In this document: positions 5,488 through 19,537 of the stretch, one piece after another
Layout: every line of letters begins with the position of its first letter
Position numbering within the stretch: position 1 is the first letter of the stretch
From: Rhizobiaceae bacterium
GTDB taxonomy: Bacteria; Pseudomonadota; Alphaproteobacteria; Rhizobiales; Rhizobiaceae
Assembly: GCA_019635795.1 (NCBI GenBank)
Contig: JAHBYV010000004.1
Span: 62,001 to 126,000 of the forward strand
Direction of reading: 5' to 3'
DNA: 64,000 nt
Translations under genes and position numbers: made by a program
Notes under the pieces: model-generated
The model's input: the letters and a program-made list of their open reading frames with translations, nothing else
Databases searched by the model: none
Told to the model about the DNA's origin: nothing

Positions 5488-5528
5488 GTGGCAACGGTTG
5501 CCACCTTAACTTTGACGGCAATGGAGCC
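5488..5528 (+). promoter_or_regulatory. ANTAR-type paired hairpins in amiC leader
   Basis: First hairpin 5488-5504, stem GTGGC/GCCAC with a seven-base loop AACGGTT (or a five-base loop if A-T closes). Second hairpin 5517-5528, stem GGC, loop AATGGA, stem GCC: a six-base loop with A at position 1 and G at position 4, the signature recognised by ANTAR proteins. The 3' half of hairpin 2 is also the 5' arm of the terminator at 5525-5568, so the two structures are mutually exclusive. AmiR-type binding would favour hairpin 2 and let RNA polymerase read into amiC-amiR: autoregulation (inference). Confidence 0.7.
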
Positions 5529-5568
5529 TCCAGTTTCCGGTGTTGAACCGGCAATGGGGGCTTTTTTT
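5525..5568 (+). terminator. Intrinsic terminator (attenuator 1)
   Basis: Stem AGCCTCC (5525-5531) pairs with GGGGGCT (5556-5562, one G-U), with an inner CCGGT/ACCGG stem, followed by seven T residues. It lies 108 bases upstream of the amiC start, inside the untranslated leader, so it would stop transcription unless antiterminated. Confidence 0.8.
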
Positions 5569-5675
5569 GTGTTCGTGTCAGCGGAAAGCGAGGCTTGTTC
5601 AACAGGCGACCATCATAAAACACACAATACGCACATGGTTGACCCAGCGCTGAGGGGCGCAGAAGGAAAGAACCG

Positions 5676-6836
5676 ATGGGAGTAAGGAAAGGGTACGAAA
5701 AGACCTCGGAGCCTTGGCGTGTCGGGGTTTTATTTTCGCGCACTGGTTTTATGTCTGTGATCGAGGAAACACAGTTGCGCGGGACTTTAATTGCTATCGA
5801 TCAAATCAACGAGCGCGGTGGAATTAATGGCAGGCCGATAGAGCCTGTTATCTATGATCCTGGATCGGACGCGCGTTCTTACGGGCAGTATGCCAAACGG
5901 CTGATGGTGGAAGATGGCGTCAGCACGATTTTCGGCTGTTATACATCTTCCAGTCGTAAGGCCGTTCTGCCAGTTGTCGAGCGTCTGGATGGGTTGCTCT
6001 GGTATCCGACGCTTTACGAAGGCTTCGAGTTTTCGCCGAATGTAATTTACACAGGGGCGACCCCGAACCAAAATTCGGTGCAGCTTTGCCGGGTGCTTAT
6101 GGAGCAGTTTGGCAAGCGCTTCTTCTTCGTCGGATCGGACTATATCTATCCACGCGAATCCAATCGCGTCATGCGGGAATTGGTTCGCAACAGTGGAGGG
6201 TCAGTCGTCGGCGAACGATATGTTCGGCTTGAGGCGGATCGAAGCGAATTCTTACCTCTGCTCAGGGATATAAAGAGAGCCCAACCGGACGTGATATTCT
6301 CAACGGTTGTGGGTGAATCCACTACCTTCCTTTATCAGGCCTATCACGATCTTGGTTTGAACCCGAAAGTTGTCCCTATTGCCAGTCTCACCACCACTGA
6401 GGCTGAGGTCCGCGCCATGGGTAGCGATGTCGGCGAGGGGCACCTAACAGCTGCTTCCTATTTCCAGGGCATCGAGACGGAGCGCAATCAGGATTTTGTA
6501 GCGCACTACCACAAGCGCTTTGGAGATGATGAGCCCACTAATATGTGCCTGGAGTCGTCCTATTTTCAGGTGAACCTTTTTGCGCGCACGCTTGAGCAAA
6601 CCAATTCGCTCGATACGAAGTTGCTCAGAAACTCAGTCATGGGTGTTGAGTTCGAAGCCCCGCAAGGGTGTGTCTCGATCAATCCGGTATGGGGACATGC
6701 AGATGTCTGGACCCGAATTGGCCGCGCCAACGCCGATGGCCAATTCGACATCGTGTTTGAATCTCAGGCTAACGTCGCCTCGGATCCTTATATGATCAGC
6801 TACGGGCGTTGTTTCGAGTTCGCAGAATGTGCCTAG
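5676..6836 (+). CDS. amiC: AmiC-like amide sensor / negative regulator
   Basis: Cytoplasmic ligand-sensing protein of the periplasmic-binding-protein fold that holds the antiterminator AmiR inactive until a short-chain amide binds. 386 aa, no signal peptide (starts directly into the core WRVGVLFSRTGF). It shares LLWYPTLYEG, VIYTGATPNQN, FFVGSDYIYPRE and VIFSTVVGES with the transporter binding protein encoded at 7748, i.e. the two are paralogues, one cytoplasmic and one exported. ATG 5676 follows AAGGAAAG. amiR begins 29 bases downstream. The leader carries an ANTAR-type attenuator, so AmiCR probably controls its own transcription. Confidence 0.88.
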   Translation: MGVRKGYEKTSEPWRVGVLFSRTGFMSVIEETQLRGTLIAIDQINERGGINGRPIEPVIYDPGSDARSYGQYAKRLMVEDGVSTIFGCYTSSSRKAVLPVVERLDGLLWYPTLYEGFEFSPNVIYTGATPNQNSVQLCRVLMEQFGKRFFFVGSDYIYPRESNRVMRELVRNSGGSVVGERYVRLEADRSEFLPLLRDIKRAQPDVIFSTVVGESTTFLYQAYHDLGLNPKVVPIASLTTTEAEVRAMGSDVGEGHLTAASYFQGIETERNQDFVAHYHKRFGDDEPTNMCLESSYFQVNLFARTLEQTNSLDTKLLRNSVMGVEFEAPQGCVSINPVWGHADVWTRIGRANADGQFDIVFESQANVASDPYMISYGRCFEFAECA

Positions 6837-6865
6837 CTTAGGACGTTGTTTCTGGAGGAAATCAG

Positions 6866-7522
6866 GTGAGGCTGGATTACGGACATGATCGTTGGCTGTC
6901 TGGCCGTCGGCGTGACGAGGTTCACCTGCCGGGCAATGATCGTCAGGCAAAACATACGCAGCGAACGGGCGAACTCAACCTGGCGGTTATTGTCGAGCGC
7001 GATGACAATGGCGAGTTCCTTATACGGGAGTTGCAGCGTATGCGCGCGAACGTCAGGCATGTATGGCCCGCGCCGGCTCAAGTTCCACTGCAATATGATG
7101 CGATTTTCTGCACTATCTCGAATGACTTGCCGCAGCGTATACCATGGGTGCCGGGAGAGCCTTCTTCCGCGCTCATTCTGGTCGACGATGGAAAAGCGCC
7201 GCTTAATCTGAATCTGATACATAACTGCGCTGCCCATGGTTTGCTGCACTATCCGGCGACATCGCGCATGATTCAGTCTGTGCTCATGCTTGCGCGTGAG
7301 CACTTCTAGTATGAAAGGCGGCTACGCAGTCGCATAGAAAAGCTGGATGAAAACTTGCGCACGACCCGTCTCGTGGAGCGGGCCAAGGTGTTGCTGATAC
7401 AGTTTAAAAAGCTCAGCGAAGAAGAAGCGTATAACTTCCTGCGCAAGCAGGCGATGGAGAAAAGAGTGACTATCGGAGCAGTGGCTTCTGCAATTATTGA
7501 CTCGCATGAGCTTCTGAGTTAG
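6866..7522 (+). pseudogene. amiR: AmiR-like ANTAR antiterminator interrupted by an in-frame TAG
   Basis: RNA-binding antitermination regulator partnered with AmiC. GTG 6866 follows TCTGGAGGAAATCAG. The first 147 codons form the receiver-like pseudo-domain (ALILVDDGK region) and the start of the coiled coil (VLMLAREHF); then comes TAG at 7307-7309. The same frame continues without a gap from TAT 7310 to a stop at 7522: YERRLRSRIEKLDENL, then a complete ANTAR helix bundle (VERAKVLLIQFKKLSEEEA, FLRKQAMEKR). The whole would be 218 aa, close to AmiR of Pseudomonas (196 aa), and aligns across the stop without an insertion or deletion. So a single nonsense codon, readthrough or a sequencing error separates the sensor-contact part from the RNA-binding part. 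No convincing in-frame restart with a ribosome site is visible before the ANTAR domain. Confidence 0.82.
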
Positions 7523-7538
7523 CTTTTTGATGCTTCGT

Positions 7539-7578
7539 CGCGGCAAAGATGCCGCGCACATAGTGGGTAATGCAACCC
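7539..7578 (+). promoter_or_regulatory. ANTAR-type paired hairpins downstream of amiR (leader 2)
   Basis: Hairpin 1 at 7539-7556: perfect six-pair stem CGCGGC/GCCGCG with hexaloop AAAGAT. Hairpin 2 at 7565-7578: stem GGGT/ACCC with hexaloop AATGCA. Both loops have A1 and G4. They are separated by 8 bases, and hairpin 2 shares AACCC with the 5' arm of the following terminator. This is the clearest ANTAR target in the window, placed between amiR and the amide transporter genes. Confidence 0.85.
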
Positions 7579-7619
7579 TGCGGGTCCGCTGATGCGGAAC
7601 GCGGGGTTTTTTTGTTTTT
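7574..7619 (+). terminator. Intrinsic terminator (attenuator 2)
   Basis: Nine-pair stem AACCCTGCG (7574-7582) with CGCGGGGTT (7600-7608), an apical CCGC/GCGG stem and a run of seven T then five more T. The 5' arm overlaps ANTAR hairpin 2, so the two folds exclude each other. It closely resembles the minus-strand terminator at 19376-19421. Confidence 0.88.
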
Positions 7620-7639
7620 GCCCATGCGAATGCGCATTG

Positions 7640-7681
7640 CGGCTAAGTCGCCGTCAGAAAAGTTTTAGAGGCAATGAGGCC
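7640..7681 (+). promoter_or_regulatory. Second ANTAR-like hairpin pair before the transporter (leader 3)
   Basis: Hairpin 1 at 7640-7653, stem CGGC/GCCG, hexaloop TAAGTC (G4 kept, A1 replaced by T). Hairpin 2 at 7670-7681, stem GGC/GCC, hexaloop AATGAG (A1, G4). Hairpin 2 overlaps the 5' arm of the terminator at 7677-7732, as in leader 1. Together with leader 2 this gives two attenuators in series ahead of one operon. Confidence 0.65.
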
Positions 7682-7732
7682 CCGGTACGGACCATCCCAT
7701 TTGGGTTGGCGCGTTCCGGGGCCTTTGTTTTT
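7677..7732 (+). terminator. Intrinsic terminator (attenuator 3)
   Basis: Nine perfect pairs, AGGCCCCGG (7677-7685) with CCGGGGCCT (7716-7724), followed by TTTGTTTTT. It ends only 16 bases before the GTG start of the binding-protein gene, so readthrough is required for expression of the operon from upstream promoters. Confidence 0.85.
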
Positions 7733-7747
7733 CAAGGGAGACAGAGG

Positions 7748-8995
7748 GTGAACAAGAGCAGACGTACATTTCTCAAGTTGGGCGCCGCTGCAGGCGCCTT
7801 CACGGTGACCGGGTTTCCGCACATCTGGTCGAAGAATTCGTCATTCGCATATGCGCAGGGCGGTGAGATCAAGGTCGGAGTTCTTTTCTCGCTAACTGGA
7901 ACTACCGCTATCATTGAAGAGTCGCTGAACAAGGCGACGATCATGGCGATCGAAGAGATCAATGCGGCAGGTGGTATCAACGGCATGAAAATTGTGCCTG
8001 TGATCGAAGATCCTGCGTCCGATCCTGCAACATTTGCTGAAAAAGCGCGCAAGCTTGTCATGAGTGACAAGTGCGTGTCGGTATTCGGCTCTTACACTTC
8101 GGCAAGCCGCAAAGCAGTGCTTCCCGTATTTGAAAAGCAGGAAAACCTGTTCTGGTACCCAACGCTTTATGAAGGACGGGAATGCTCGAAAAACGTGATC
8201 TACACCGGCGCTGTGCCAAATCAGCAGCAGGACGATTTCGTCCCCTGGCTGGTCGAAAAATTCGGCAAGCGCTGGTACCTGATCGGCTCCAACTACATCT
8301 ATCCCAAGGAAGAAAACAATTATTGCAAGAAATTGCTGGAGGGTCTTGGGGCGGAGGTCATTGCCGAGGAATATGTTCCACTAGGCCATTCTGAATTTTC
8401 TTCCGTAATCAACAAGTTCCGTTCAGAAAAGCCGAACGTAATATTCTCCACCGTGGTGGGTGACTCTGTTGTCGCGCTGCATCGTCAGTATCGGGCTGCC
8501 GGTCTCGATCCAGCCACCATGCCAATGGCGAGCCTTACGACATCCGAGAACGAAGTGGCAGCAATGGGAGGGGATGCGGCGGCAGGCCACTTTACGTCTG
8601 CGCCCTATTTCATGGTTTTCGATTCCCCTGAAAACAAGAAGTTTGTGGAGGCCTACAAAGCGCGCTGGGGCGGTGACAAGGTCACGCACTTTGTTTCGGA
8701 GTCTTCATATTTCCAGATCCATCTTTTCGCTCAGGCAGTGGCCAAACTCGCGCCAAGTGACATAGGCCCATTGGGCATTCGCGATGCAGTGAAGGGCGAG
8801 GAATACAAGGCACCGCAAGGGCTGGTGAAGGTTGAGCCGGATAATCTGCATTGTTGGCTGCGTCCGAAAATCGGTCAGTGCAAAGCCGACGGGCAGTTCG
8901 AGATATTGCAACAGTCCGCGGACTGGCTCGAACCTAATCCCTACAGTGCCTATCCCGACCAGAAGTGCACTTCTGAAGGTCTAAAGCAAATCTAG
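7748..8995 (+). CDS. Amide/urea-type ABC transporter substrate-binding protein (Tat-exported)
   Basis: Periplasmic receptor of a branched-chain-type ABC importer, closest by motif to short-chain amide (FmdD) and urea (UrtA) binding proteins. GTG 7748 is preceded by AAGGGAG; an in-frame ATG at 7592 would start inside a terminator and was rejected. N-terminus NKSRRTFLKLG is a twin-arginine signal, followed by a hydrophobic stretch and AQG near the cleavage site. Core: VGVLFSLTGTTAIIEES, FWYPTLYEG, VIYTGAVPNQ, IGSNYIYPKEEN. 415 aa. Paralogue of the cytosolic sensor AmiC in the same locus. Confidence 0.9.
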   Translation: MNKSRRTFLKLGAAAGAFTVTGFPHIWSKNSSFAYAQGGEIKVGVLFSLTGTTAIIEESLNKATIMAIEEINAAGGINGMKIVPVIEDPASDPATFAEKARKLVMSDKCVSVFGSYTSASRKAVLPVFEKQENLFWYPTLYEGRECSKNVIYTGAVPNQQQDDFVPWLVEKFGKRWYLIGSNYIYPKEENNYCKKLLEGLGAEVIAEEYVPLGHSEFSSVINKFRSEKPNVIFSTVVGDSVVALHRQYRAAGLDPATMPMASLTTSENEVAAMGGDAAAGHFTSAPYFMVFDSPENKKFVEAYKARWGGDKVTHFVSESSYFQIHLFAQAVAKLAPSDIGPLGIRDAVKGEEYKAPQGLVKVEPDNLHCWLRPKIGQCKADGQFEILQQSADWLEPNPYSAYPDQKCTSEGLKQI

Positions 8996-9059
8996 GTCTG
9001 TCCAGGATAGCCGGTGGCCAGCCGTCTGGTCACCGGCCCAGCTTGCGGTGACATTGGCA

Positions 9060-9929
9060 ATGGATTTTATTGTTTCACAGATACTGACAGGTCTCAGCCT
9101 GTCTTCCATCCTGCTCCTCGTGGCGCTCGGCCTCGCCGTTATTTATGGGGTTACAGGCGTCATCAATCTGGCACACGGCGAATTCGTGATGCTGGGTGCA
9201 TACGGAGCTTGGCTGCTTCAAACCCAACTGGGATTGGGCCTGATAGTAAGCCTTATTCCAATATTTCTGCTGGTGGCGGCTCTCGGCTGGGTCATTGAAG
9301 TCGTCGTTATTCGACATCTCTACGACCGACCGCTTGATACGATTTTGGCCACTTGGGGTCTTGGCGTGATGATTCAGCAAATCGTTCGCCTGACTGCGGG
9401 CGGTGAACTGCGTTATGTCCAGATGCCACCTTCGCTATCCGGCAGCGTCAATATTCTCGGGGCGACCGACTCGGCCTATCGCCTTTTTGTGCTGGGTGTT
9501 GCTCTTGCGATGTTTTGCCTGATCTGGGTCATCTATCGCTACACATCATTCGGCCTGAAACTGCGCGCCATCACCCAGAACAGCGGTATCGCTTCCTGCT
9601 TCGGCATTAATTCTGCGCTTGCATACAGGGTGACATTCGCCTTCGGGGCAGGCGTCGCCGGTCTGGCCGGTGCTTTGATCTCTCCTCTCAAGAGCGTTTC
9701 GCCGGAAATGGGTACGACCTACGTGGTCGATGCCTTCATGGTCGTCGTTCTTGGTGGGGTGCAAAGCCTTCTCGGCACGTTGGCGAGCTCCGGTCTTCTT
9801 GGAGAGATATCCGGCGTTCTCGCCTACTACAGCAACGACACTATCGCCAAAGCGCTCGTGCTGCTCGCCATCGTCATCATCATCCGCTTCCGTCCGCAGG
9901 GCCTGTTCGCCCCGCGAGTGCGCGCATAG
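9060..9929 (+). CDS. Branched-chain/urea-type ABC transporter permease 1 (LivH/UrtB family)
   Basis: Inner-membrane permease of the amide importer, 289 aa, with about eight hydrophobic segments. Family motifs: GLAVIYGVTGVINLAHGEFVM (split by the membrane), LGVMIQQIV, GLKLRAITQN, FGAGVAGLAGAL, VLGGVQSLLGT near the C-terminus. ATG 9060 is chosen over GTG 9048 in the same frame; neither has a strong ribosome site. Follows the binding protein and precedes permease 2 by 27 bases. Confidence 0.9.
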   Translation: MDFIVSQILTGLSLSSILLLVALGLAVIYGVTGVINLAHGEFVMLGAYGAWLLQTQLGLGLIVSLIPIFLLVAALGWVIEVVVIRHLYDRPLDTILATWGLGVMIQQIVRLTAGGELRYVQMPPSLSGSVNILGATDSAYRLFVLGVALAMFCLIWVIYRYTSFGLKLRAITQNSGIASCFGINSALAYRVTFAFGAGVAGLAGALISPLKSVSPEMGTTYVVDAFMVVVLGGVQSLLGTLASSGLLGEISGVLAYYSNDTIAKALVLLAIVIIIRFRPQGLFAPRVRA

Positions 9930-9956
9930 CGAAGAACGTAAAGAGAGGTGCATCCG

Positions 9957-11081
9957 GTGTCCGGAAAAGTTTCCTTCCAGATCCTCACCTATGGCGTCGT
10001 CTGCCTGGCGATACTGTTGTTGCCGATCGTCGTGGACGACGCCTTCCTCCTCAATAAATACTCGCGCTATCTTGTATCGGGGATGCTTGCGATCGCGCTT
10101 TCCCTTTCATGGGGCTACGCGGGCATTCTCAATCTCGGCCAAGCCACTACCTTCGGTCTCGGCTCATACTGCATGGCCATGTATCTGAAGCTGAAGACCG
10201 TGCCAATTCATACGGGCAGCGACGGGCTTCCAGACTTCATGGTCTGGAACAATGTTACGGAATTGCCCTGGATATGGGTGCCGTTCCATTCCACGGCCTT
10301 CGCATTGGCGGCGGGCATACTCGTTCCTGCGCTGTTTGCTGCTCTTTTGGGCTGGTTCATGTTTGGCGGCCGCGTGACCGGTGTATATGCCGCGATCATT
10401 ACGCTCGCTGTCATGGTGGTCGTTAACCTGATTATCATTGACCAGCAGAGCTACACCGGCGGGTTCAATGGCCTGACCGATCTCGCACAGTTCGAATTGT
10501 TCGGCTTCGAGTTCGATGCCTACTCTGCCTCGACATATTATCTCGTGGCTATCGGCCTTACCATTTCGTTGTTCCTGTCGCTTGCTGTGACGCGCAGCAA
10601 AACGGGACTGATCCTGCAAGCTGTTCGAGACCAGGAAGAGCGTGTGCGCTTTTTTGGGTACGATGTGGCGCTCTACAAAACGTTCGTGTTTGCATTCTCT
10701 GCTGCAATCGCGGGCTTTGCAGGCATGTTCTATACGATTGTGATGGAATTCGCCTCGCCGACATTCCTTGGTGTGCCGCTTAGCCTTTCCATTGTGATCT
10801 GGGTCGCTGTCGGAGGCCGACAAAGCCTGCTCGGCGCGATGTTGGGGGCGTTGCTGGTTACCGGCGTTCAAGGCGCGCTTTCAGAATCCGAGACGTTCCT
10901 TGAAACCTGGACGCTCATCATGGGCGCGCTGTTCGTTCTGATCGTTCTCTTCCTGCCCAAGGGTCTGGCGGGCGCTTTCTCAGCATTGATTGATCGGCTC
11001 GCGCCGGCGTCGCGGGCGCCCATATCACAAGCTGTCGAGAACTCCCCGAAAGCGGAAGCGCATATTGGAGGGGCAGCATGA
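9957..11081 (+). CDS. Branched-chain/urea-type ABC transporter permease 2 (LivM/UrtC family)
   Basis: Second membrane subunit, 374 aa. Motifs: SLSWGYAGILNLGQA, TGLILQAVRDQEERVRFFGYD (two halves of one motif), FSAAIAGFAGMFY, IVIWVAVGGRQSLLGAMLGA (cytoplasmic EAA-like loop) and LFLPKGLAG. GTG 9957 is preferred because AGAGAGG lies 8 bases upstream; GTG 9948 is in frame. Its stop overlaps the start of the first ATPase gene, indicating tight coupling. Confidence 0.9.
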   Translation: MSGKVSFQILTYGVVCLAILLLPIVVDDAFLLNKYSRYLVSGMLAIALSLSWGYAGILNLGQATTFGLGSYCMAMYLKLKTVPIHTGSDGLPDFMVWNNVTELPWIWVPFHSTAFALAAGILVPALFAALLGWFMFGGRVTGVYAAIITLAVMVVVNLIIIDQQSYTGGFNGLTDLAQFELFGFEFDAYSASTYYLVAIGLTISLFLSLAVTRSKTGLILQAVRDQEERVRFFGYDVALYKTFVFAFSAAIAGFAGMFYTIVMEFASPTFLGVPLSLSIVIWVAVGGRQSLLGAMLGALLVTGVQGALSESETFLETWTLIMGALFVLIVLFLPKGLAGAFSALIDRLAPASRAPISQAVENSPKAEAHIGGAA

Positions 11082-11842
11082 ATACGTCACGCGAACCGCT
11101 GCTCTCGCTCAGAGAAGCAACCGTATCTTTCCAGGGCTTCATAGCTGTCGATCATCTTGATCTTGATGTTGGCAAAGGTGAGCTTCGCTGCCTGATTGGG
11201 CCGAACGGCGCGGGCAAGACAACCACTCTTGATCTCATATGCGGCAAATCACGGATTACATCCGGCGAAATATCATTCAAGGGCGTGCCAATACACGCCT
11301 TGAAAGAGTTTCAGATTGCGCGAGCGGGAATAGGGCGGAAGTTTCAGGTTCCCAGCGTTTTCCGTCAGCTCACGGTTCGAGAAAACCTCAGCATTGGCCA
11401 GTCGCGTGCAACCGGGGTTTTGCACAATCTGCTGAAATTTGGCTCAAATGACGACCGCTCCAGACTTGAAGAGATCGCGGTTCTGGTGGGCTTGCGGGAT
11501 GAAATGGAGACGCTTGCGGCCCATCTGTCGCATGGTCAAACTCAGTGGCTGGAAATCGCGCTGATACTGGCCCAGGACCCAGCCTTGATCCTGATGGACG
11601 AGCCAACTGCTGGCATGACGGCGCACGAAACTGCCAAAACCGCAACTCTGTTCAACCGACTTCGCGGCAAGCACACGCTGATTGTCGTCGAACACGATAT
11701 GGGGTTCGTGCGCGACATAGCGGAAACAATTTCGGTGATGCACCAGGGCAGATTGCTCGCTCAGGGCACAACCGATGAAGTCGCAAACGACCCTCGTGTG
11801 CGTGAGGCCTATCTCGGCTCAGGAGGTATCGGTCATGCTTGA
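11078..11842 (+). CDS. ABC transporter ATP-binding protein (LivG/UrtD family)
   Basis: First ATPase of the amide importer, 254 aa. Walker A GPNGAGKTT, Q-loop GIGRKFQVPSVF, signature LSHGQTQWLEIA (a variant of LSGGQ typical of UrtD), Walker B LILMDEPTAGM, switch His in VVEHDM. Starts inside the stop of permease 2 (ATGA) and overlaps the next ATPase by 8 bases. Confidence 0.93.
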   Translation: MNTSREPLLSLREATVSFQGFIAVDHLDLDVGKGELRCLIGPNGAGKTTTLDLICGKSRITSGEISFKGVPIHALKEFQIARAGIGRKFQVPSVFRQLTVRENLSIGQSRATGVLHNLLKFGSNDDRSRLEEIAVLVGLRDEMETLAAHLSHGQTQWLEIALILAQDPALILMDEPTAGMTAHETAKTATLFNRLRGKHTLIVVEHDMGFVRDIAETISVMHQGRLLAQGTTDEVANDPRVREAYLGSGGIGHA

Positions 11843-12530
11843 GCTAGCCAATCTCGACGGCTTCTATGGAACAAGCCGCGCGCTGCAATCGGTGAACTTG
11901 TCAGTCAAGCAGGGCGAGTTTCTCTCTGTCCTTGGCCGCAATGGTGTAGGCAAAACAACATTGCTGCGCGCGATACTCGGGCTGATGTCGCGCACCAGCG
12001 GCTCGGTCGTTCTGGATGGGGCCGAGATAAACACGCTTCCCACGCACAAGCGGGCAATCGCCGGGTTGGGTTATGTCCCGCAAGGGCGCGGAATTATGCC
12101 CGCCTTTACCGTCAAGGAAACGTTGATGCTGGGGACGTGCGCTTCGGCCAGTCCGATGAAGGAAATCCCGGAGCATATCTTTCAGCTGTTTCCCATGCTC
12201 AAGGAATTTCTGGGCAGGCGCGGCGGCAATCTTTCTGGCGGCCAACAGCAACAGTTGGCCATTGCGCGCGCCCTTTTATCCGAACCGAAGATTCTGCTGT
12301 TGGACGAACCAACGGAAGGGATTCAGCCCAACATTGTCGAACAGATCGAAGATGTGCTCATCGATCTGAACCGTAAGCACGGGCTTACCATCATTCTGGT
12401 CGAACAGAATATCAAATTTGCACGGCGTGCCTCTGATCGCTTTGCAATTCTCAATCGCGGCAGCGTGGCGGTGTCAGGCGACATTGCATCGCTCAGCGAT
12501 GAGCTCATCCACCAACACCTTGTTGTTTAA
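11835..12530 (+). CDS. ABC transporter ATP-binding protein (LivF/UrtE family)
   Basis: Second ATPase, 231 aa. Walker A GRNGVGKTT, Q-loop YVPQGRGI, signature LSGGQQQQ, Walker B ILLLDEPTEGI, H-loop VEQN (Gln in place of His, as usual in LivF/UrtE proteins). ATG 11835 follows AGGAGGT at 11821-11827; the longer frame from 11775 lies within the preceding gene and was not used. amiE begins 21 bases later. Confidence 0.93.
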   Translation: MLELANLDGFYGTSRALQSVNLSVKQGEFLSVLGRNGVGKTTLLRAILGLMSRTSGSVVLDGAEINTLPTHKRAIAGLGYVPQGRGIMPAFTVKETLMLGTCASASPMKEIPEHIFQLFPMLKEFLGRRGGNLSGGQQQQLAIARALLSEPKILLLDEPTEGIQPNIVEQIEDVLIDLNRKHGLTIILVEQNIKFARRASDRFAILNRGSVAVSGDIASLSDELIHQHLVV

Positions 12531-12551
12531 GACTGCAAAAGGAGAACGGGA

Positions 12552-13586
12552 ATGTACCACGGCGATATTACCAGCAGCAAAGACACGGTTGGCGTAGCTG
12601 TCGTGAACTACAAGATGCCAAGAATGCACACAAAGGCCGAAGTGCTGGAGAACTCCCGCAAGATAGCTGACATGATAGAAGGAATGAAAGTGGGCCTTCC
12701 GGGTCTGGATCTTGTAATCTTTCCTGAATACTCGACCCACGGCATCATGTACGATTCCAAGGAAATGTATGAGACTGCCTCGCAGATTCCGGGCGAAGAG
12801 ACGGCTATCTTTGCCGAAGCTTGCAAGAAGGCAAATGTTTGGGGCGTGTTCTCGCTGACGGGGGAAAGGCACGAGGAGCACCCGAACAAGGCCCCCTACA
12901 ACACCTTGATCTTGATGAACAGCAAGGGCGAGATCGTGCAGAAATATCGCAAGATCATGCCTTGGGTGCCTATCGAGGGATGGTATCCCGGAGATTGTAC
13001 TTATGTATCGGAAGGCCCCAAAGGGCTGAAAATCAGCCTTATTATCTGCGACGACGGCAATTATCCGGAAATCTGGCGCGATTGCGCGATGCGTGGCGCA
13101 GAACTCATCATTCGTTGCCAAGGCTACATGTACCCGGCAAAGGAACAGCAGGTTATGATTTCCAAGTCCATGGCATGGGCGAACAACGTTTACGTTGCCG
13201 TCGCCAACGCTGCGGGATTTGACGGCGTCTATTCCTACTTTGGGCATTCAGCGATTATCGGTTTCGACGGTCGTACTTTGGGTGAATGCGGCGAGGAAGA
13301 GTATGGAATCCAATATGCGCAGCTATCTGTCTCCGCAATACGCGATGCTCGCAAGAACGGGCAATCACAGAACCACCTCTTCAAGCTTCTGCACCGTGGT
13401 TATACCGGCATGATCAATTCGGGCGAGGGCGACCGCGGCGTCGCATCCTGCCCCTATAATTTCTACTCGAAATGGGTGAACGATCCTGACGGCACGCGTG
13501 AAATGGTCGAGGCCTTCACGCGCAACACGGTTGGAACGGAGGAGTGCCCGATAGACGGGATACCCAGCAAAGCGTCGCATCGCTGA
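12552..13586 (+). CDS. amiE: Aliphatic amidase
   Basis: Hydrolyses short-chain aliphatic amides to the carboxylic acid and ammonia in the cytosol; nitrilase superfamily. 344 aa and collinear with Pseudomonas AmiE from the first residues ([17 protein letters not shown]). The catalytic triad is intact: Glu59 (FPEY), Lys134 (KYRK) and Cys166 (IICDDGN). [15 protein letters not shown] and [20 protein letters not shown] (family blocks) are unchanged. Strong ribosome site AAAAGGAGAA. It is the last-but-two gene of the transporter operon, so uptake and hydrolysis are coupled. Expression is expected to depend on AmiR antitermination upstream. Confidence 0.96.
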
Positions 13587-13594
13587 CGTTCATC

Positions 13595-13622
13595 TGCGCT
13601 CCGTGGCTTGCCACGGGGCGCA
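13595..13622 (+). other. Strong hairpin between amiE and the AAA+ gene
   Basis: Thirteen-pair stem (one G-U) TGCGC-T-CCGTGGC / GCCACGG-G-GCGCA with a two-base TT gap that must open to a small loop. No T run follows on either strand, so it is not a standard terminator. It may stabilise the 3' end of the upstream transporter-amiE message or reduce expression of the downstream pair (inference). Confidence 0.55.
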
Positions 13623-13650
13623 AGTCTCACGGTAATATTACGGGAATGAT

Positions 13651-14481
13651 ATGACGCAGACTCGACGCGGAGCCGATGCGGCCAACCCTCTTGCTGATTT
13701 TATGATCACCAGCGAGCCTTATTTCAGGCCGGTAGGGCGTGAGATTGAGCTCTATGAAGCGGCCTACAAGGCACGAATGCCCATTATGCTGAAAGGCCCT
13801 ACGGGTTGCGGCAAGACCCGTTTTGTAGAGCATATGGCGTGGCGTCTTGGAAAGCCCCTTATTACAGTTTCCTGCCATGAAGACATGACGGCTTCCGATC
13901 TTGTGGGGCGTTATCTGCTCGATGCCGGCGGTACGGTATGGCACGACGGCCCACTCACTTTGGCAGTTCGGTATGGGGCGATCTGCTATCTGGACGAGAT
14001 TGTGGAGGCACGGCAGGATACGACGGTTGTTATTCACTCTCTGACGGATGACAGGCGAATTCTTCCACTTGAGAAGAAGAACGAGGTTGTTCGCGCTCAC
14101 CCGGATTTTCAGGTCGTGATCTCGTACAATCCGGGATATCAGAGCGTTTTGAAAGATCTGAAAGAGTCAACCAAACAACGTTTTGGTGCGATCGCATTTT
14201 CCTACCCGTCCAGCAATGTGGAAGCGGAAATCGTGATGCGCGAGGCCGGGGTTGATCGACGTGTCGCAGATACGCTGGTGCGTATTGCAGAACGTTCGCG
14301 CAATCTGAGAGGGCAGGGCCTTGAGGAAGGTGCTTCCACACGAATGCTGGTGAATGCGGGACTTCTGGTCGCGGGCGGAATACCGATTGAGGAGGCAAGC
14401 CAAGTCGCGATGGTCGTTCCAATAACGGATGATCCGGATTTACGCGAAGCACTCACGGGCGCTATCGCGGCTTGCATTTAA
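13651..14481 (+). CDS. MoxR/CbbQ/NorQ-type AAA+ ATPase
   Basis: 276-aa AAA+ chaperone-like ATPase. Walker A GPTGCGKT at residues 49-56, Walker [11 protein letters not shown], sensor region [10 protein letters not shown] and arginine-rich C-terminal lid. It matches the CbbQ/NorQ/NirQ group, which works with a von Willebrand A partner to remodel metal or cofactor enzymes (established for Rubisco and nitric oxide reductase). AmiB in the Pseudomonas amidase operon is also an AAA ATPase, but the partner gene next door here argues for a CbbQ/CbbO-type pair. Probable target: the amidase or transporter (inference). Confidence 0.85.
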
Positions 14482-14502
14482 TGCGTTGCCAGGGGCGCGT
14501 TG

Positions 14503-16695
14503 ATGACTGGCTTGAAGACTGAATTTCCCGCAGATTGGCATGATCGATGGCGCGAAGCCCATCAAAGGATCGATCATGCCGGATATGGCGAATTGGTCGC
14601 TTCCGCTTATCGAAAATGCGGGCCGGTTCTGGCCGGAAGGGTCGGCCCGGATTTTGCCGTGCGCCTTGGCAGAACCGTTTCCACTGTGGCGATCAAAAGC
14701 GGACGCAGGGCAGCATTGGTTCTCATAGAGGCTGCCTGGGAAATTTCAGGACTAGCTACAGATTCGGCGCAAACCCGATCGTGGCTTGATGCGGTAGATA
14801 GTGTTGCCCGGCAGGCACCGGATGCTCTTTCAGCGATGCTTTCCAATACAACTCGGATTGTCCGGGAATTAGGGTTTGACGGGTTCCAGACCTTTGTCCG
14901 CATGGGGCTCGCTCTAAGTCTGGATGATCGTGGCCGCAGACGAGCTTTCTTTGCACTCGAGAGCGGGGAAGCCCGGCAGGCCCTGGAGTATCGCAGCGGT
15001 TCGCAGTCGCTTTCCGAAAAGATTCCACAACTAAAGCATTACTACACAGCGTTATGGGGATTTAGTCCGCCAGTTGCCGCCGCGCCTGCGGACGCCCCGG
15101 AGCCAATGCGTCGACGGGCAGGATTTGGTGGTGGCGGTATTCGCTTGCCTGTCGCATTCGCCGGCTTCACTGACACTGATCAAAAAGCGCTATACCGTGC
15201 TGCGCTGGCACATATTGGCGCTCACCATAGATATTCAAGGGAAAAGTTTGCGGCAAAAGGGCTGAAACCGCTCCAGATTGCGTTGGTTTCGTTGATTGAG
15301 GACGCGCGGGTCGAGCGCCTTGCAACGGCCGCGATGCCGGGTCTCCAAAGCCTTTGGGGTCGTTTTCATATAGCGCGCGCTGAAGGTGCGCCAATCGCAA
15401 TAAATTTGATGGCGCGGCTTTCACGTGCACTCAATGATCCGTCCTATTCGGATTCACATGGCTGGGTCGAGAAAGGTTGCAGCCTGTTCTCTGAAGCAAT
15501 GTCTACCGACATCACCGACCAGTTATTGAGCCGCAGAATCGGAGGGCTGCTTGGCAATGACCTCGGGCAGATGCGCCTGCAGTTTGACGCCAAGACCTAT
15601 GTAGTCCAGCCGGCCTATCGCGACGACAATCTTGCGCTGTGGGATTTCGGTGAAGAGCAGGAGAATGCGATTGAAATCGAGGCGATGGCCGAAGGTGCCC
15701 GTATCGACAAGCGCGATGAAGCGGACGGTCGACGTGAGGAGGGAGCTGGCGAAGAGGAGAAGGCGGGAAAACTGTCTGAAGCAAGGCCGGACGAGGGTGT
15801 GATCGTCGCTCGCTATCATGAGTATGATTATGTAACAGGAAGTTTGCGCCCAAACTGGTGCACTGTGCGGGAAGTGTCAGGCAAGTTGGCAAGTGAAAAG
15901 TCACTGGCAGCGCTCCGCGACTCCCGATCTGACGTTGTGGAACGGATTACCGCTCTAATTAACGCCTCCCGTGTCAGTCGTCAGGAGCGCACAAGACGGC
16001 AACCGGAAGGCGAGTTTCTGGATACTGACGCTGCTATTTCGGCCATGATCGCTTTCAGAAATGGCGAGGCCCCCGATACGCGGATTTACGGACGATACGA
16101 ACGCCGTTCGCGCGATATGTCCGTGCTTGTCTTAATAGATGCCTCATACTCGACCAATGATCTTGTTCGCGAAGGCGGAAAATCGGTGCTGTCCACTGAG
16201 AAGCTCGCTGGTGCTTTTCTTGCGCGGGCTATGGCCGGATTGGGCGATCCATTTGCAATGGCTGCCTTTTGTTCGGACACACGCGAAGACGTACGATATC
16301 TGCGCATCAAGGACTTTCAATCACCTTTCAATGACTATTCGCTCGCGCGCTTGGCTGGTCTCGAAGGGGCGCTATCTACAAGACTGGGCGCGGTCATTCG
16401 CCATGCGGGTCAGGAAATCGCAGGACAAAGCACTTATAGAAGGCTGGTTCTGGTTATTACGGATGGTGAACCATCCGATGTGGACGTTGAGGACAAGCGG
16501 TTCCTTGTTGAGGATGCCAGAGCCGCTGTGCATGAGCTCAATAGAGAGGGCATAGACGTGTTTGGTGTCTTGCTGGATTCGGAAGCGGAATCTTATGCCT
16601 CCCGCATTTTCGGCAAGCGGAATTCGGTTTTAATTGGTTCTGCAGAAAAGCTACCGGAGGCATTGCCCCTCATCTATCTGCGTCTTGCACGGTAA
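14503..16695 (+). CDS. CbbO/NorD-type von Willebrand factor A protein
   Basis: 730-aa partner of the preceding AAA+ ATPase. The C-terminal domain is a VWA fold with an intact metal-binding (MIDAS) motif DASYS at residue 546 onward, plus ITDGEPSD later. The N-terminal half is helical, with the CbbO/NorD features VSLIEDARVER and LYRAALAHIGAH, and an acidic low-complexity linker around residues 400-430 (EADGRREEGAGEEE). ATG 14503; a TTG one codon earlier is possible. It begins 21 bases after the ATPase gene and is the last gene of the amide operon. Confidence 0.85.
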   Translation: MTGLKTEFPADWHDRWREAHQRIDHAGYGELVASAYRKCGPVLAGRVGPDFAVRLGRTVSTVAIKSGRRAALVLIEAAWEISGLATDSAQTRSWLDAVDSVARQAPDALSAMLSNTTRIVRELGFDGFQTFVRMGLALSLDDRGRRRAFFALESGEARQALEYRSGSQSLSEKIPQLKHYYTALWGFSPPVAAAPADAPEPMRRRAGFGGGGIRLPVAFAGFTDTDQKALYRAALAHIGAHHRYSREKFAAKGLKPLQIALVSLIEDARVERLATAAMPGLQSLWGRFHIARAEGAPIAINLMARLSRALNDPSYSDSHGWVEKGCSLFSEAMSTDITDQLLSRRIGGLLGNDLGQMRLQFDAKTYVVQPAYRDDNLALWDFGEEQENAIEIEAMAEGARIDKRDEADGRREEGAGEEEKAGKLSEARPDEGVIVARYHEYDYVTGSLRPNWCTVREVSGKLASEKSLAALRDSRSDVVERITALINASRVSRQERTRRQPEGEFLDTDAAISAMIAFRNGEAPDTRIYGRYERRSRDMSVLVLIDASYSTNDLVREGGKSVLSTEKLAGAFLARAMAGLGDPFAMAAFCSDTREDVRYLRIKDFQSPFNDYSLARLAGLEGALSTRLGAVIRHAGQEIAGQSTYRRLVLVITDGEPSDVDVEDKRFLVEDARAAVHELNREGIDVFGVLLDSEAESYASRIFGKRNSVLIGSAEKLPEALPLIYLRLAR

Positions 16696-16701
16696 AGAGG
16701 G

Positions 16702-16741
16702 CGGCGGCCGGAAAACGTTATGGGCGATTTGCCGGCCGCCG
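16702..16741. terminator. Hairpin between convergent operons
   Basis: Ten-pair stem CGGCGGCCGG (16702-16711) with CCGGCCGCCG (16732-16741) in the 56-base gap between the convergent amide operon and the hydrolase operon. GC-rich and symmetric but with no T run on either side, so a bidirectional terminator is likely but not certain. Confidence 0.5.
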
Positions 16742-16751
16742 GAACTTCTGG

Positions 16752-17771
16752 TCAGGAAGCCAGAAGTTCTTTCAACTTTTCGTCGAGGAACTTCACGTCG
16801 ACAGGGTTCGTGCCGGGTCCACCGGCAAAATGACCCCAGATTGACGGCAATGGGATCAGCTCAGCGTTGGGCATGTTTGCAACTTCATTCGCGCTGTCCG
16901 CCACAGGGAAATAGAGGTCAGTTTCGCCGGGCATCACGTAGGTTTTTGCCTTTATTGCGCCCAGCGCCTTCTTGAAGTCGCCATTGAAAATTTCATTGGC
17001 GGCAATATCTCCGTTTTGCCAGGTCCAGAGCATTGCCAGGAGATTGTTAGGGTCTTTGGGAAGAAAGAAGCCTTCCCAGAACTCGACAAGGAAATCTTCC
17101 AGAGACGAATAGCCCATGGCCTTCAGATCAAGTTCTTCCCGATAGAACGATTGCGAAAAGCCCCATCCCGCATAGACACGAGCAGCAGCCCTCAGCCCGA
17201 TTTGTGGCTTCTCTTTATACCATCCGCCCTGGAATGCTGCGTCAGCGGTCAGTGCCGCCTTCACGCCCTCCAGAAAAACGAAATTGTGCCGGGAACATTT
17301 GGCCGAGCCGCAGAACGGCAAGAGCAAATCCATCATGTCCGGGTACATTGCGCCCCAATGGAACGTCTGCAAAGCGCCCATCGACCACCCTGTGACCAAG
17401 CGAACATGCTCGATGCCAAGATGCTCTGTGATCAGTCTGTGCTGCGCCTTCACATTGTCATAGGCGGTAACACGCGGAAAGCGAGCCGCATTGTAAGGCT
17501 CAGGCGTGTTGCTGGGTGAAGAGGACAGGCCATTTCCGAACATATTCGGAATGACAATAAAGTATTTGTCGGGATCCAGTGCCATTCCTTTACCGACAAG
17601 CCATTCATTGTCGTAGTGCTGGCCGGAATACCATGTGGGATAGACAATGACATTGTCCTTAGCCGCATTCAGTTTTCCGAACGTTTTGTAAGCCAGCTTG
17701 GCATTGCGAATAGTCGCCCCGCTTTGAAGCTTGAGATCCCCATAGTCATAAATTTTGTAGTCGAGCGTCAT
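16752..17771 (-). CDS. Alpha/beta hydrolase of the MetX (homoserine acetyltransferase) fold
   Basis: 339-aa alpha/beta-fold enzyme. Nucleophile elbow GWSMGALQT, acid residue in PGETDLYFP, catalytic His in WGHFAGG. The N-terminal blocks (LAYKTFGKLN, DNVIVYPTWYSG) match MetX-like proteins, but the context is not methionine synthesis. It lies 58 bases downstream of an NCS1 permease gene and is on the same transcript, headed by an ANTAR-type leader, so a role in releasing nitrogen from an amide, ester or ureide-like substrate is plausible (inference). Substrate unknown. Confidence 0.85.
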   Translation of the reverse strand: MTLDYKIYDYGDLKLQSGATIRNAKLAYKTFGKLNAAKDNVIVYPTWYSGQHYDNEWLVGKGMALDPDKYFIVIPNMFGNGLSSSPSNTPEPYNAARFPRVTAYDNVKAQHRLITEHLGIEHVRLVTGWSMGALQTFHWGAMYPDMMDLLLPFCGSAKCSRHNFVFLEGVKAALTADAAFQGGWYKEKPQIGLRAAARVYAGWGFSQSFYREELDLKAMGYSSLEDFLVEFWEGFFLPKDPNNLLAMLWTWQNGDIAANEIFNGDFKKALGAIKAKTYVMPGETDLYFPVADSANEVANMPNAELIPLPSIWGHFAGGPGTNPVDVKFLDEKLKELLAS

Positions 17772-17829
17772 GACTGCTTTCCCTCTGTTGAAAAGTTGCA
17801 GGCGCTATGCCGCGCCTGCATGTCTGATT

Positions 17830-19161
17830 TCAGCGGTTGCCCTGTGATGCAGGTTCGCGTTGCACCAGTGATGACAAAATCAGGTGAGCTACACCCGCGA
17901 CGATGCCCGCCGAGAGCGCCGTGGACAGGTGCGGTGCGTTGAACTCCACGAGGAAGCCGACCGCAGAGCCGATCGCCCATGAGATGAAAGGTAGTTTGCG
18001 CCATTCATGCGAGGTGGTACCGCTTCTTTTCAGCACGTAAGCTTCAATAAGAAGAATGGCCCCGATAGGCGGCACAAGGATACCAAGAAGCGAAAGCCAT
18101 TGAATAAAGAAGGCCCAGATGTTTCCAGCGGCGATGGCGATGCCGATCAAGCCCAAAACGATCGCCATTATCCGCATCTTTGATCCAAGTATGCGCGACC
18201 AGCCCGTTGCTGCATTGTAGAGGCAGTGCGAACACACCGACCCGAGATTGATGTAAAGAAACAGGAAGGCGAGTAGGCTGAGCCATCCGATTTGCAATGA
18301 GTTGAGGTAGCCGAACATGTTGTCTGCCCCGAACGGATTAGCATTTGGAACAGCAAGTGCAGCCGTCATGACGCCACCCACGAGCATGGCAATCAGGTTA
18401 GAAACGGGAAATGCCGAGAAGGTCGCAATGAGAGAATGCGTGCGGTTTTGCGCCCACCGGTTAAAATCGGCGGTCACTGTGCCTGCATCGATGAAAAGCG
18501 CAATGACAACCGTCAAACCCGCGCCCATGCTCATCGTTGCTACGCCATTGTTCCCGGCATAGTTCCAGATCGCGTCAAACGTGGTCGTTGAAGCGGAATG
18601 CAGTGCCACAAAAATCCCGAGGATCAGGAAAAGAGGTACGGATACCAGTCCGATCAGGTGCAGCCCGCGCACACCAATAAAGGTGATGCCTATATAAAGC
18701 AGGCCCGCAATGATGGTCATTGCCACATAGTTCAGGCCGTATGTGCTCGAAATCAGTGCGCCCGTGATGCCGGTTTGAACTGCATACCAGCCAAGAAGCA
18801 AAGTCGAGAGAAGACCCGACGCCAGTGCATATCCTCTGGTTCCAAAAACATTAGATGCAATCAGGGCGAAGTTCATGCCGCTTTTCGTTGCTGACACACC
18901 CAGCGCGCCAACATAGGCGAACATGATAAGGTTGCCGATTATCATTGCGGCAAGTGCGTTCGAAAAGCCCATGCCAAGGACGAGTATTGAACCCGTCATC
19001 GCCCCCGTTATGATCATGGGAAAGCCAGCCCAAACCGTTGCGATTGAAAAAAGACTGTGTCGCGCCGCGAGCGGCACGGGTCGATGTTCGTATTCTTCGC
19101 CGAGTACGTGGTCTATTTCTGACTCGACATCTGCTAAGGGATGTTCCGGTTTCCGTGTCAT
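17830..19161 (-). CDS. NCS1-family permease (cytosine/purine/hydantoin type)
   Basis: 443-aa inner-membrane symporter with about twelve hydrophobic segments. N-terminal cytosolic part with PLAARHSLFSIATVWAGFPM, then FNRWAQNRTHS, both typical of CodB-like NCS1 carriers. ATG 19161 is chosen because the upstream frame extension (to 19320) runs through leader RNA and looks non-coding; GGGGAACAC precedes the ATG. It is the first gene of a two-gene operon with the hydrolase. The long leader holds ANTAR-type hairpins and a terminator, so induction by the AmiC/AmiR system is predicted. The substrate is probably a nitrogenous compound related to those handled by AmiE (inference). Confidence 0.88.
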   Translation of the reverse strand: MTRKPEHPLADVESEIDHVLGEEYEHRPVPLAARHSLFSIATVWAGFPMIITGAMTGSILVLGMGFSNALAAMIIGNLIMFAYVGALGVSATKSGMNFALIASNVFGTRGYALASGLLSTLLLGWYAVQTGITGALISSTYGLNYVAMTIIAGLLYIGITFIGVRGLHLIGLVSVPLFLILGIFVALHSASTTTFDAIWNYAGNNGVATMSMGAGLTVVIALFIDAGTVTADFNRWAQNRTHSLIATFSAFPVSNLIAMLVGGVMTAALAVPNANPFGADNMFGYLNSLQIGWLSLLAFLFLYINLGSVCSHCLYNAATGWSRILGSKMRIMAIVLGLIGIAIAAGNIWAFFIQWLSLLGILVPPIGAILLIEAYVLKRSGTTSHEWRKLPFISWAIGSAVGFLVEFNAPHLSTALSAGIVAGVAHLILSSLVQREPASQGNR

Positions 19162-19302
19162 GTGTTCCCCATCTTTCGAGCGTTGAATGCTGGGTAGGGA
19201 GGTCGAGGCGCACACTGGCCTGCCCCCTACCGGCGAAACGACTCGATGGCAAACCGCGTAATATGATCGTTGGGAACACCTCGAATATTTCCGCCCATCC
19301 AG

Positions 19303-19356
19303 GCAGACCATCTGCGGCAATCATGCCTTGCAATTGTGCGCGGCGACCTTGCCGCG
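19303..19356 (-). promoter_or_regulatory. Downstream ANTAR-like hairpins in NCS1 leader
   Basis: On the minus strand, 19356-19339 folds into stem CGCGGC/GCCGCG with hexaloop AAGGTC (A1, G4); the stem is identical to hairpin 1 of leader 2 at 7539. Further on, 19315-19303 gives GCAG/CTGC around ATGGT. Unlike the other leaders, no T-tract terminator overlaps the second hairpin, so its mode of action is open (perhaps translational, or decayed). Confidence 0.55.
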
Positions 19357-19375
19357 GGCGAGTCTTCACTGCGCC

Positions 19376-19421
19376 AAAAAACAAAAACCCCCACGTTCCG
19401 CTTGCACGGAGCCGCAGGGGT
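19376..19421 (-). terminator. Intrinsic terminator (NCS1 leader attenuator)
   Basis: Minus strand: ACCCCTGCG pairs over nine positions (two G-U) with CGTGGGGGT, followed by TTTTTGTTTTTT. The stem and apical GCTCCG/CGGAAC-like region are clearly similar to the amide-operon terminator at 7574-7619, pointing to common descent or shared selection by one regulator. Confidence 0.85.
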
Positions 19422-19455
19422 ACCATACCCGTTATTATCGCAGCACCATTGCTGC
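19418..19455 (-). promoter_or_regulatory. ANTAR-type paired hairpins in NCS1 leader
   Basis: Minus strand hairpin 1 (19455-19440): stem GCAGC/GCTGC, hexaloop AATGGT (A1, G4). Hairpin 2 (19430-19418): GGG/CCC around TATGGTA, or GGGT/ACCC around ATGGT. Nine bases separate them. Hairpin 2 overlaps the 5' arm of the terminator 19376-19421. Same arrangement as leader 2 of the amide operon, on the opposite strand. Confidence 0.78.
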
Positions 19456-19468
19456 AATGAACGTGAAA

Positions 19469-19497: not shown

Positions 19498-19537
19498 CAA
19501 TATACAATTTCGCCATGTTGCATGGCCTTGCAAGGAG

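Follow-up and report, generated by a model that had tools for sequence, protein, structure and literature searches.

A stretch of 64,000 nt from a Rhizobiaceae bacterium (contig JAHBYV010000004.1 of assembly GCA_019635795.1, positions 62,001-126,000; genome of 3.26 Mb in 30 contigs), referred to here as the window and numbered from its own position 1, very probably carries an amide-utilisation regulon governed by transcription antitermination of the AmiC/AmiR type, in which AmiR is an ANTAR-domain protein. Five dual-hairpin leaders were identified, four of them running into an intrinsic terminator. They stand before three predicted transcription units on two strands: the regulator genes amiC-amiR, an ATP-binding cassette (ABC) transporter followed by the amidase gene amiE and, on the opposite strand, an NCS1 permease with a hydrolase (Table 1). 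We lean slightly towards a history in which the 3' end of amiR acted as a portable control cassette, consisting of a nested promoter and tandem attenuators, that enlisted the NCS1-hydrolase operon, and in which a later nonsense mutation in amiR left a five-element regulon with a broken antiterminator.

Dual-hairpin leaders in the window

An initial annotation of this DNA had described four leaders with two small hairpins and a terminator that shares the 3' strand of hairpin 2. All four are present: in leaders 1-4, a G+C-rich terminator stem with a U-tract starts at the 3' strand of hairpin 2, and the minimum-energy folds form this terminator and exclude hairpin 2 (z-scores of -2.14, -3.73, -4.32 and -1.88, respectively). 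The five hexaloops that had been named were found again (AATGGA at 5520, AAAGAT at 7545, AATGCA at 7569, AATGAG at 7673 and AATGGT at 19450 on the minus strand), and the statement that each leader has at least one hexaloop with A at position 1 and G at position 4 (A1/G4) is right for leaders 1-4, as both hairpins of leader 2 and one hairpin each of leaders 1, 3 and 4 are of this type. The loop of hairpin 2 in leader 4 can be read as 5 nt or 7 nt. The count of four fell short by one, since a further dual hairpin on the minus strand (19355-19316, leader 5) had been overlooked. Its hairpin 1 has an A1/G4 hexaloop, its hairpin 2 has A at position 4, and hairpin 2 shares no strand with an intrinsic terminator.

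Two purpose-made scanners for the hexaloop and terminator pattern were weak, one recovering only leaders 1 and 2 and the other only leader 2; being too strict or too loose, they were replaced by covariance models. Model R1 was built from 20 leader cores chosen by eye, four from the window and 16 from relatives, and when run without filters gave five matches of 30-41 bits in the window, the next scoring 13. Because four of these five matches sat in the R1 seed, a second model, R2, was built from 44 leaders of other records (alignment A3) and contains no window sequence. Searched against the 64,000 bases on both strands, R2 ranks leaders 1-5 as its top five, in the order 7540-7577, 19355-19316 (minus), 5488-5528, 7639-7681 and 19455-19419 (minus), with the next best match at 13.0 bits. 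Over the whole genome of this bacterium, the five window sites rank first with R1, and R2 places four of the window leaders in its top five. Leader 4 is missing from the R2 list; it was probably missed by the fast first look of that search, as its 23.7 bits would have placed it. R2 also finds leaders at the expected sites in three plasmid records outside its seed, from Rhizobium etli 8C-3, Ciceribacter thiooxidans and Roseibium algicola. No relevant Rfam family was found, either at the gathering score in the whole window or at E<=10 between positions 4000 and 21000.

Covariation of the leader stems

Covariation across homologous genomes, which the initial annotation had named as a check on these structures, was found in alignment A3, made of relatives only. 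From 54 leader hits, seven were dropped as off-locus (L013:19558, L013:17491, L080:5928, L070:12000, L223:6405, L223:4615 and L227:5515; numbers with L denote locus records). A3 takes 44 of the remaining 47 and leaves out L004:5099, which is identical to L003, and two leaders with a poor fit to the structure, L080:4881 (2 of 3 hairpin 2 pairs) and L013:4997 (hairpin 1 with 3 pairs), an omission that flatters the covariation count. All 44 rows precede amiC, the transporter or NCS1. The eight pairs of the two hairpins form in 98.5% of the cells. Two-sided changes occur in four of the eight pairs (shuffle mean 1.7; 6 of 500 shuffles reach four) and in 17 cells (shuffle mean 2.9; reached by 0 of 500), and slid versions of the pairing attain at most 3 pairs and 7 cells. 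The leader stems are supported by covariation, in a test that leans to the favourable side, because the search that supplied the rows used R1, a model that presupposes the stems, and the two ill-fitting leaders were omitted. The spacing between the two stems is 9-17 nt; the distance between hairpins matters for ANTAR leaders, according to excerpts of PMC8934654 and PMC3369931.

Co-occurrence with AmiR-type ANTAR proteins

Of 80 named loci selected through their amidase, an ANTAR match was obtained in 39, and in 20 of these it reaches >=50% identity. An R1 match lies before the transporter in all 20 loci of this group and in none of the 19 below 50%. A search of 297 genomes of the family with R1 at E<=0.02, which used stricter filters and may have missed weaker leaders, gave matches in 18, and in nine of these (G000, G001, G127, G177, G199, G224, G229, G263 and G264) a terminator follows downstream. 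The same nine are the genomes with an ANTAR match at E<=2e-27, the next best value being 4.9e-16. Some ANTAR match at E<=1e-6 exists in 86 of the 297 genomes; therefore, other ANTAR proteins do not bring this leader.

These data bear on the alternative that the leaders merely terminate transcription constitutively, as ordinary intrinsic terminators do, and that their hexaloop hairpins are incidental. Leader 2 lies directly after amiR and could simply end the amiCR transcript, and a generic terminator scan of the region was not above chance (14 found, 17 expected from shuffles). However, both conservation and covariation are seen in the dual hairpin that precedes the terminator, this hairpin pair forms a 5' leader before amiC and NCS1, where no gene ends, and terminator-bearing leaders occur in 9/9 genomes with an AmiR-type ANTAR protein versus 0/288 others, a contrast from which the stricter filters may have removed weak sites. 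This alternative is thus very improbable, and regulated attenuators remain the preferred reading.

Relatives put the same genes behind such predicted leaders in other gene orders, so that the leaders follow the genes. In the first order, leader-amiC-amiR-tandem-transporter-amiE, with or without NCS1-hydrolase downstream, are arranged L002, L003, L004, L009, L223, L224, L225 and R. etli 8C-3 (L239), and the three leader matches in an unannotated Ciceribacter stretch (L240) fit it as well. The second, leader-NCS1-hydrolase-amiC-amiR-tandem-transporter, is found in Pannonibacter (L013/L164), where the second tandem site is weak (22.1 bits), Mesorhizobium 1M-11 (L075/L165), L226, L227 and Roseibium algicola (L241). 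The window, with NCS1-hydrolase on the opposite strand, represents a third. Where the NCS1-hydrolase pair heads its unit, leader and terminator are present in 5/5 relatives examined of this AmiR class (Pannonibacter, Mesorhizobium 1M-11, G127, G229 and Roseibium), and in Thioclava (L056, L058), which has a distant AmiR, a dual hairpin with terminator was seen by eye before NCS1. Between amiR and the transporter, the model finds two sites in 13 of 24 loci, plus three plasmid loci. Nine Bradyrhizobium loci (L025, L026, L028, L034, L037, L038, L040, L044 and L059) have a single leader before the transporter, and in L228 a second terminator accompanied by hairpin 2 alone was seen by eye.

A candidate promoter in the end of amiR

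The initial annotation attributed control to RNA alone. This was overstated, as a promoter-like TTGAC element precedes each unit. In 34 leader starts (each tandem represented by its first leader; without L026, L038, L044 and L051), a TTGAC hexamer lies <=75 nt upstream in every case and reads TTGAC[A/T] in 33, while a random 75-mer of the window holds TTGAC[A/T] with a probability of 0.02. For the transporter leader, the element lies inside amiR. There, the codons of an [I/V]-D residue pair read (A/G)TT-GAC in 27/27 loci that have the pair (the window and 26 relatives, which are related and not independent); elsewhere in this part of the gene, 24 of 203 I/V codons have T at the wobble position and 43 of 81 D codons are GAC. 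The two residues are missing from two of 29 amiR ends examined, L051 and L106. In L051, a TTGAC element is located between amiR and the leader, and an Agrobacterium plasmid whose amiR end is devoid of the element has an intergenic TTGACA instead. Hairpin 1 begins 10-31 nt past the amiR stop codon in 23 of 24 loci, the exception being L051 with 214 nt.

The conserved element in the amiR end is read as a candidate promoter, and because of this conservation the transporter unit is suggested to have a promoter of its own. The same conservation argues against a single joint transcript of amiCR and the transporter, although readthrough from amiCR may also occur.

The NCS1 leader segment as a probable diverged copy

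The leader segment of the NCS1 unit resembles the end of amiR with its tandem leaders. A local alignment of 19501-19292 (minus) with 7493-7711 (plus) scores 107 and extends from the last amiR codons through hairpin 2 of leader 3, with weak similarity beyond. Alignment of the minus-strand segment with tandem cassettes from eight loci gave scores of 94 (window), 106 (L002), 114 (L223), 77, 78, 57, 52 and 72, and alignment with ten leaders of other classes gave 19-38. In 80 control comparisons of tandem cassettes with other leader classes, the mean was 32.7 and the maximum 53, so the lowest cassette score (52) is not above the highest control. The L223 and L002 cassettes resemble the segment slightly more than the window's cassette does; the copy would therefore be old or derived from a related lineage, and not a recent local duplication. 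The two candidate promoters (19470-19497 and 7497-7524) are identical at 6/6 positions of the -35 element, 5/6 of the -10 element and 6/16 of the spacer, as expected if the promoter and not the coding sense was retained.

We infer copying as the cause of this similarity. The second terminator is missing from the copied segment, which would explain the state of leader 5. A DNA search of the genome found no further copy of the segment, and the same search also misses the diverged copy. If true, this would be a testable example of an RNA regulon growing by the copying of a promoter-attenuator segment instead of the evolution of a new leader.

Loop consensus and points against antitermination

Several observations weigh against regulation of these units by an ANTAR antiterminator. 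A generic promoter scan listed none of the candidate promoters, and their -10 elements are weak. The published ANTAR loop rule is A1/G4 (excerpts of PMC3369931), and across 49 distinct leaders, window included, it is not strictly kept: six-base loops of hairpin 1 (n=46) have A (30), G (14) or T (2) at position 1 and G (37) or A (9) at position 4, and those of hairpin 2 (n=48) have A (36) or G (12) at position 1 and G (30) or A (18) at position 4. Position 1 is a purine in 44/46 and 48/48 loops, respectively, and position 4 in 46/46 and 48/48; A prevails at position 2, positions 3, 5 and 6 are variable, and four loops are not six-base. Judged from these counts, the rule looks relaxed to purines at positions 1 and 4. 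Just 2 of the 3 hairpin 2 pairs form in six of 51 leaders. For leader 5, no U-tract terminator was found, and its stretch folds no better than shuffles. Furthermore, both models give matches of about 28-36 bits in GC-rich reading frames without terminators, so that the score alone is no proof.

Such off-locus matches were rejected where no terminator followed, which applied to 11 of 13 stretches by eye and to 9 of 18 genomes by script. Among them, C10:9906 (31.0 bits, rank 4 in the R2 search of this genome) lies antisense in a gene for a major facilitator superfamily (MFS) transporter, has no U-tract and was taken as chance. A long open frame was not used for rejection, since such frames also cover some of the true leaders (L170, L173). 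This alphaproteobacterial family of AmiR leaders, for which Rfam is blank in the window, could be useful for testing ANTAR requirements through its relaxed loop rule and serial attenuators.

The interrupted amiR gene

The assignment of AmiR as the ANTAR protein encoded here was confirmed by its AmiR_N and ANTAR Pfam domains, the latter (PF03861, 7337-7498) scoring 58.4 bits against a cut-off of 27.3, and by a match to 1qo0_D; a gene for an AmiC-type amide sensor adjoins it. The counter-evidence lies in its integrity. An in-frame TAG at 7307-7309 splits the amiR frame (6866-7522) between the two domains, which are thus not joined in an intact gene in this genome. Upstream of the ANTAR match, 78 of 83 rows (several rows per genome) show no stop over at least 129 codons, and the other five rows all come from this genome. 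At E<=0.001, amiR is its only ANTAR match, and no second ANTAR protein was found. This strain may therefore lack a working regulon, and the ANTAR protein, as sequenced, is probably not made whole. The proposal of one antiterminator for its own gene and two uptake operons is partly supported; judged by the leaders, one antiterminator would serve three units on two strands.

Among named relatives, Mesorhizobium denitrificans LA-28 (L002) is the closest at this locus, with 91% identity in AmiC and 94% in AmiE. Relative to it, the nonsynonymous divergence (dN) is 0.026 for the ANTAR piece, 0.040 for AmiE and 0.139 for AmiR_N, and the ANTAR piece has 0.69 synonymous differences per site. The ANTAR piece is therefore little changed, and the stop would be recent, an error or tolerated. 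Amber suppression was rejected, as TAG ends the amiC, amiR, binding-protein and first permease genes as well as 5 of 27 stop-to-stop frames of >=300 amino acids.

A recent mutation would make the regulon a relic in this strain, with amiR lost, the NCS1 leader copy incomplete and the leaders now mainly shutting genes off. This is judged somewhat probable: the stop lies in the sole ANTAR gene found, the use of TAG at the ends of neighbouring genes makes general amber suppression unlikely, and leader 5 has no terminator, although the ANTAR piece is under strong purifying selection by the values above and the remaining genes of the locus are open frames. Alternatively, the stop is a sequencing or assembly error and the regulon functional. 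This is conceivable for a single genome in 30 contigs, in which the piece downstream of the TAG is conserved in frame, but consensus sequences seldom contain a lone base error away from homopolymers, and the explanation is held to be the less likely one. Thirdly, the ANTAR domain might be made alone by internal re-initiation, for instance at the in-frame TTG at 7355, and bind the leaders without control by AmiC, resulting in constitutive antitermination. The conserved ANTAR frame would agree with this; however, no clear ribosome site was seen by eye before the TTG, and a coiled coil that aids dimerisation would be partly lost, which makes re-initiation improbable. The broken regulator of this natural strain, set against the intact genes of its relatives, offers a ready-made comparison.

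Regulon model and relation to known ANTAR systems

In the antitermination model, three transcription units would each start from a separate promoter-like element. Leader 1 would serve amiC-amiR, the tandem leaders 2 and 3 would serve the UrtA-E-like transporter, amiE and the AAA/VWA genes, and leader 4 with the terminator-less leader 5 would serve the NCS1 permease and hydrolase on the opposite strand. Without amide, AmiC would hold AmiR, the leaders would fold their terminators and transcription would stop. With amide, free AmiR dimers would bind hairpins 1 and 2, hairpin 2 would take up the 5' strand of the terminator and the polymerase would read on. Leader 1 would create a positive loop on amiCR, two attenuators in series would reduce leakage of the transporter/amidase unit, and the NCS1 unit would have joined the regulon by receiving a copied amiR-end/tandem-leader segment. 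With the recent nonsense codon in amiR, as sequenced, the regulon is probably locked off or leaky in this strain.

Dual hexaloop hairpins, ANTAR antitermination and several leaders per regulator are established (excerpts of PMC3369931, PMC3369936, PMC8934654, PMC3795266 and PMC6759348). The window shares with the Pseudomonas aeruginosa ami system the AmiC/AmiR pair (by family and by solved-structure match), the class of aliphatic amidase and, as described in excerpts of PMC3369931, a dual hairpin with terminator as in the amiE leader. In P. aeruginosa, according to excerpts of PMC3795266 and PMC3369936, one leader before amiE serves a single operon that includes amiC and amiR. In the window, by contrast, amiCR have a leader to themselves, tandem leaders precede an added ABC transporter, and another unit is located on the opposite strand. 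The view that this locus is more elaborate than the single-leader case thus holds against Pseudomonas and not against ANTAR systems in general. Excerpts of PMC3369931 and PMC3369936 report four ANTAR leaders in the eut locus of Enterococcus faecalis (regulator EutV), and excerpts of PMC3369931 at least 13 predicted leaders in six units of Desulfotomaculum acetoxidans, so that several leaders per locus or genome are a shared trait. The E. faecalis eut sensor is a kinase (excerpt of PMC3369936), whereas that of the window is AmiC, and the genes differ; the excerpted descriptions of the two systems mention neither a regulator-nested promoter nor the copying of a leader segment. In NasS-NasT of Paracoccus and Bradyrhizobium, a binding-protein sensor likewise frees an ANTAR antiterminator that acts on the leader RNA of nitrogen genes (excerpts of PMC3795266 and PMC6759348). 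The signal there is nitrate, compared with amide here, and PMC6759348 does not contain the words amide or amidase. Multi-leader ANTAR regulons are therefore already known, and particular to this locus are the tandem leaders, the candidate nested promoter, the apparently copied leader segment and the broken regulator. Among the best matches listed in searches of the open-licence literature, no prior description of this locus was found; the supplementary tables of PMC3369931 may list such sites.

Gene content and further observations

Table 1. Features of the amide locus, with positions in the window and the basis of each assignment.
Feature	Position	Strand	Description	Basis
amiCR promoter (candidate)	5432..5460	+	TTGACA, 16-17 nt, TTTAGC/TTAGCC	TTGAC element before leader
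Leader 1, heads amiCR	5488..5568	+	Hairpin 1 5488-5504 (7-nt loop AACGGTT), hairpin 2 5517-5528 (AATGGA), terminator to U-tract 5562-5568	R1 34.4, R2 31.5 bits; fold; homologue in M. denitrificans, L002:2943-2982
amiC	5676..6836	+	Amide sensor and AmiR inhibitor (function by family)	phmmer; Pfam Peripla_BP_5
amiR, 5' part	6866..7309	+	AmiR_N pseudo-receiver	AmiR_N E 2.8e-14; 1qo0_D match
amiR, 3' part	7310..7522	+	ANTAR domain, same frame as 5' part	ANTAR PF03861 E 3.6e-16
Promoter in last amiR codons (candidate)	7497..7524	+	TTGACT, 16 nt, TTAGCT; -10 overlaps stop codon	Codon conservation
Leader 2, first of tandem	7540..7613	+	Hairpin 1 7540-7555 (AAAGAT), hairpin 2 7565-7578 (AATGCA), terminator to U-tract 7607-7613	R1 40.8, R2 36.9 bits; terminator
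Leader 3, second of tandem	7639..7732	+	Hairpin 1 7639-7654 (TAAGTC), hairpin 2 7670-7681 (AATGAG), terminator to about 7732	R1 37.6, R2 30.4 bits; terminator
UrtABCDE-like ABC transporter	7748..12530	+		Open frames, family matches, annotation of similar plasmid records
Transporter binding protein	7748-8995	+		Family search; UrtA score below cut-off
Transporter permeases	9048-9929, 9948-11081	+		Annotation of similar plasmid records, not family search
First transporter ATPase	11078-11842	+		Annotation of similar plasmid records, not family search
Last transporter ATPase	11775-12530	+		Family search; UrtE score above cut-off
amiE	12552..13586	+	Aliphatic amidase	NCBIfam NF009802, 721.9 bits (cut-off 427)
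CbbQ/NorQ-type AAA ATPase	13651-14481	+		Family match
VWA-like protein	14500-16695	+		VWA match under its cut-off
Alpha/beta hydrolase	16752-17771	-	MetX-like	NCBIfam PRK07581
NCS1 permease	~17830-19161	-		Family match
Diverged segment copy (putative)	19292..19501	-	Like 7493-7711 (amiR 3' end, promoter, leaders 2 and 3), without second terminator	Local alignment
Leader 5	19316..19355	-	Hairpin 1 GCGGC-AAGGTC-GCCGC, hairpin 2 GGC-ATGATT-GCC	R1 30.3, R2 32.7 bits; in neither seed alignment
Leader 4, heads NCS1 unit	19383..19455	-	Hairpin 1 19455-19440 (AATGGT), hairpin 2 19430-19418 (5-nt loop ATGGT), terminator to U-tract 19387-19383	R1 32.5, R2 23.7 bits; fold
NCS1 unit promoter (candidate)	19470..19497	-	TTGACT, 16 nt, TTAACT	Match to amiR-end element

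When amiC is compared with solved structures using phmmer, AmiC (1pea/1qo0) is matched at E 1.6e-87, and the best match is 8tg1, an extracellular ligand-binding receptor, at E 1.8e-88. AmiC and the transporter binding protein are 46% identical, and the sensor is therefore probably an offshoot of a urea/amide binding protein. Upstream of leader 1, a gene for an AraC-type regulator (4270-5292) is transcribed away from it and could add control of initiation.

In a search for AAA, 36 of the 80 amidase-picked loci have a match on the amiE strand and <=4 kb downstream of this gene; the amidase itself is not known to need a metal. The NCS1 permease and the MetX-like hydrolase form a linked pair in several loci, with perhaps an amide or a nucleobase derivative as substrate.

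In an Agrobacterium tumefaciens plasmid (MWF001, CP129670.1, 12658-26937; L238), a leader of 36.3 bits stands before amiC, a weak one of 17.0 bits after amiR, and a third match of 28.3 bits lies in an opposite-strand gene. AmiC/AmiR and the leader precede a different gene set here, comprising a GTP-binding protein, a ferredoxin-like protein, CbtB/CbtA, a tubulin-like protein, CbbQ and VWA, and the annotation of this stretch contains neither an amidase nor a urt-type transporter; the regulon may have been transferred to other genes. In Roseibium, Rhizobium etli and Ciceribacter, loci of the window's type reside on a plasmid or a large secondary replicon, and one is also present in a record labelled Roseateles sp. 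XES5, whose label may be wrong. In PLSDB, 14 of 15 plasmid records are typed as non-mobilizable. Exchange of the locus between species appears likely.

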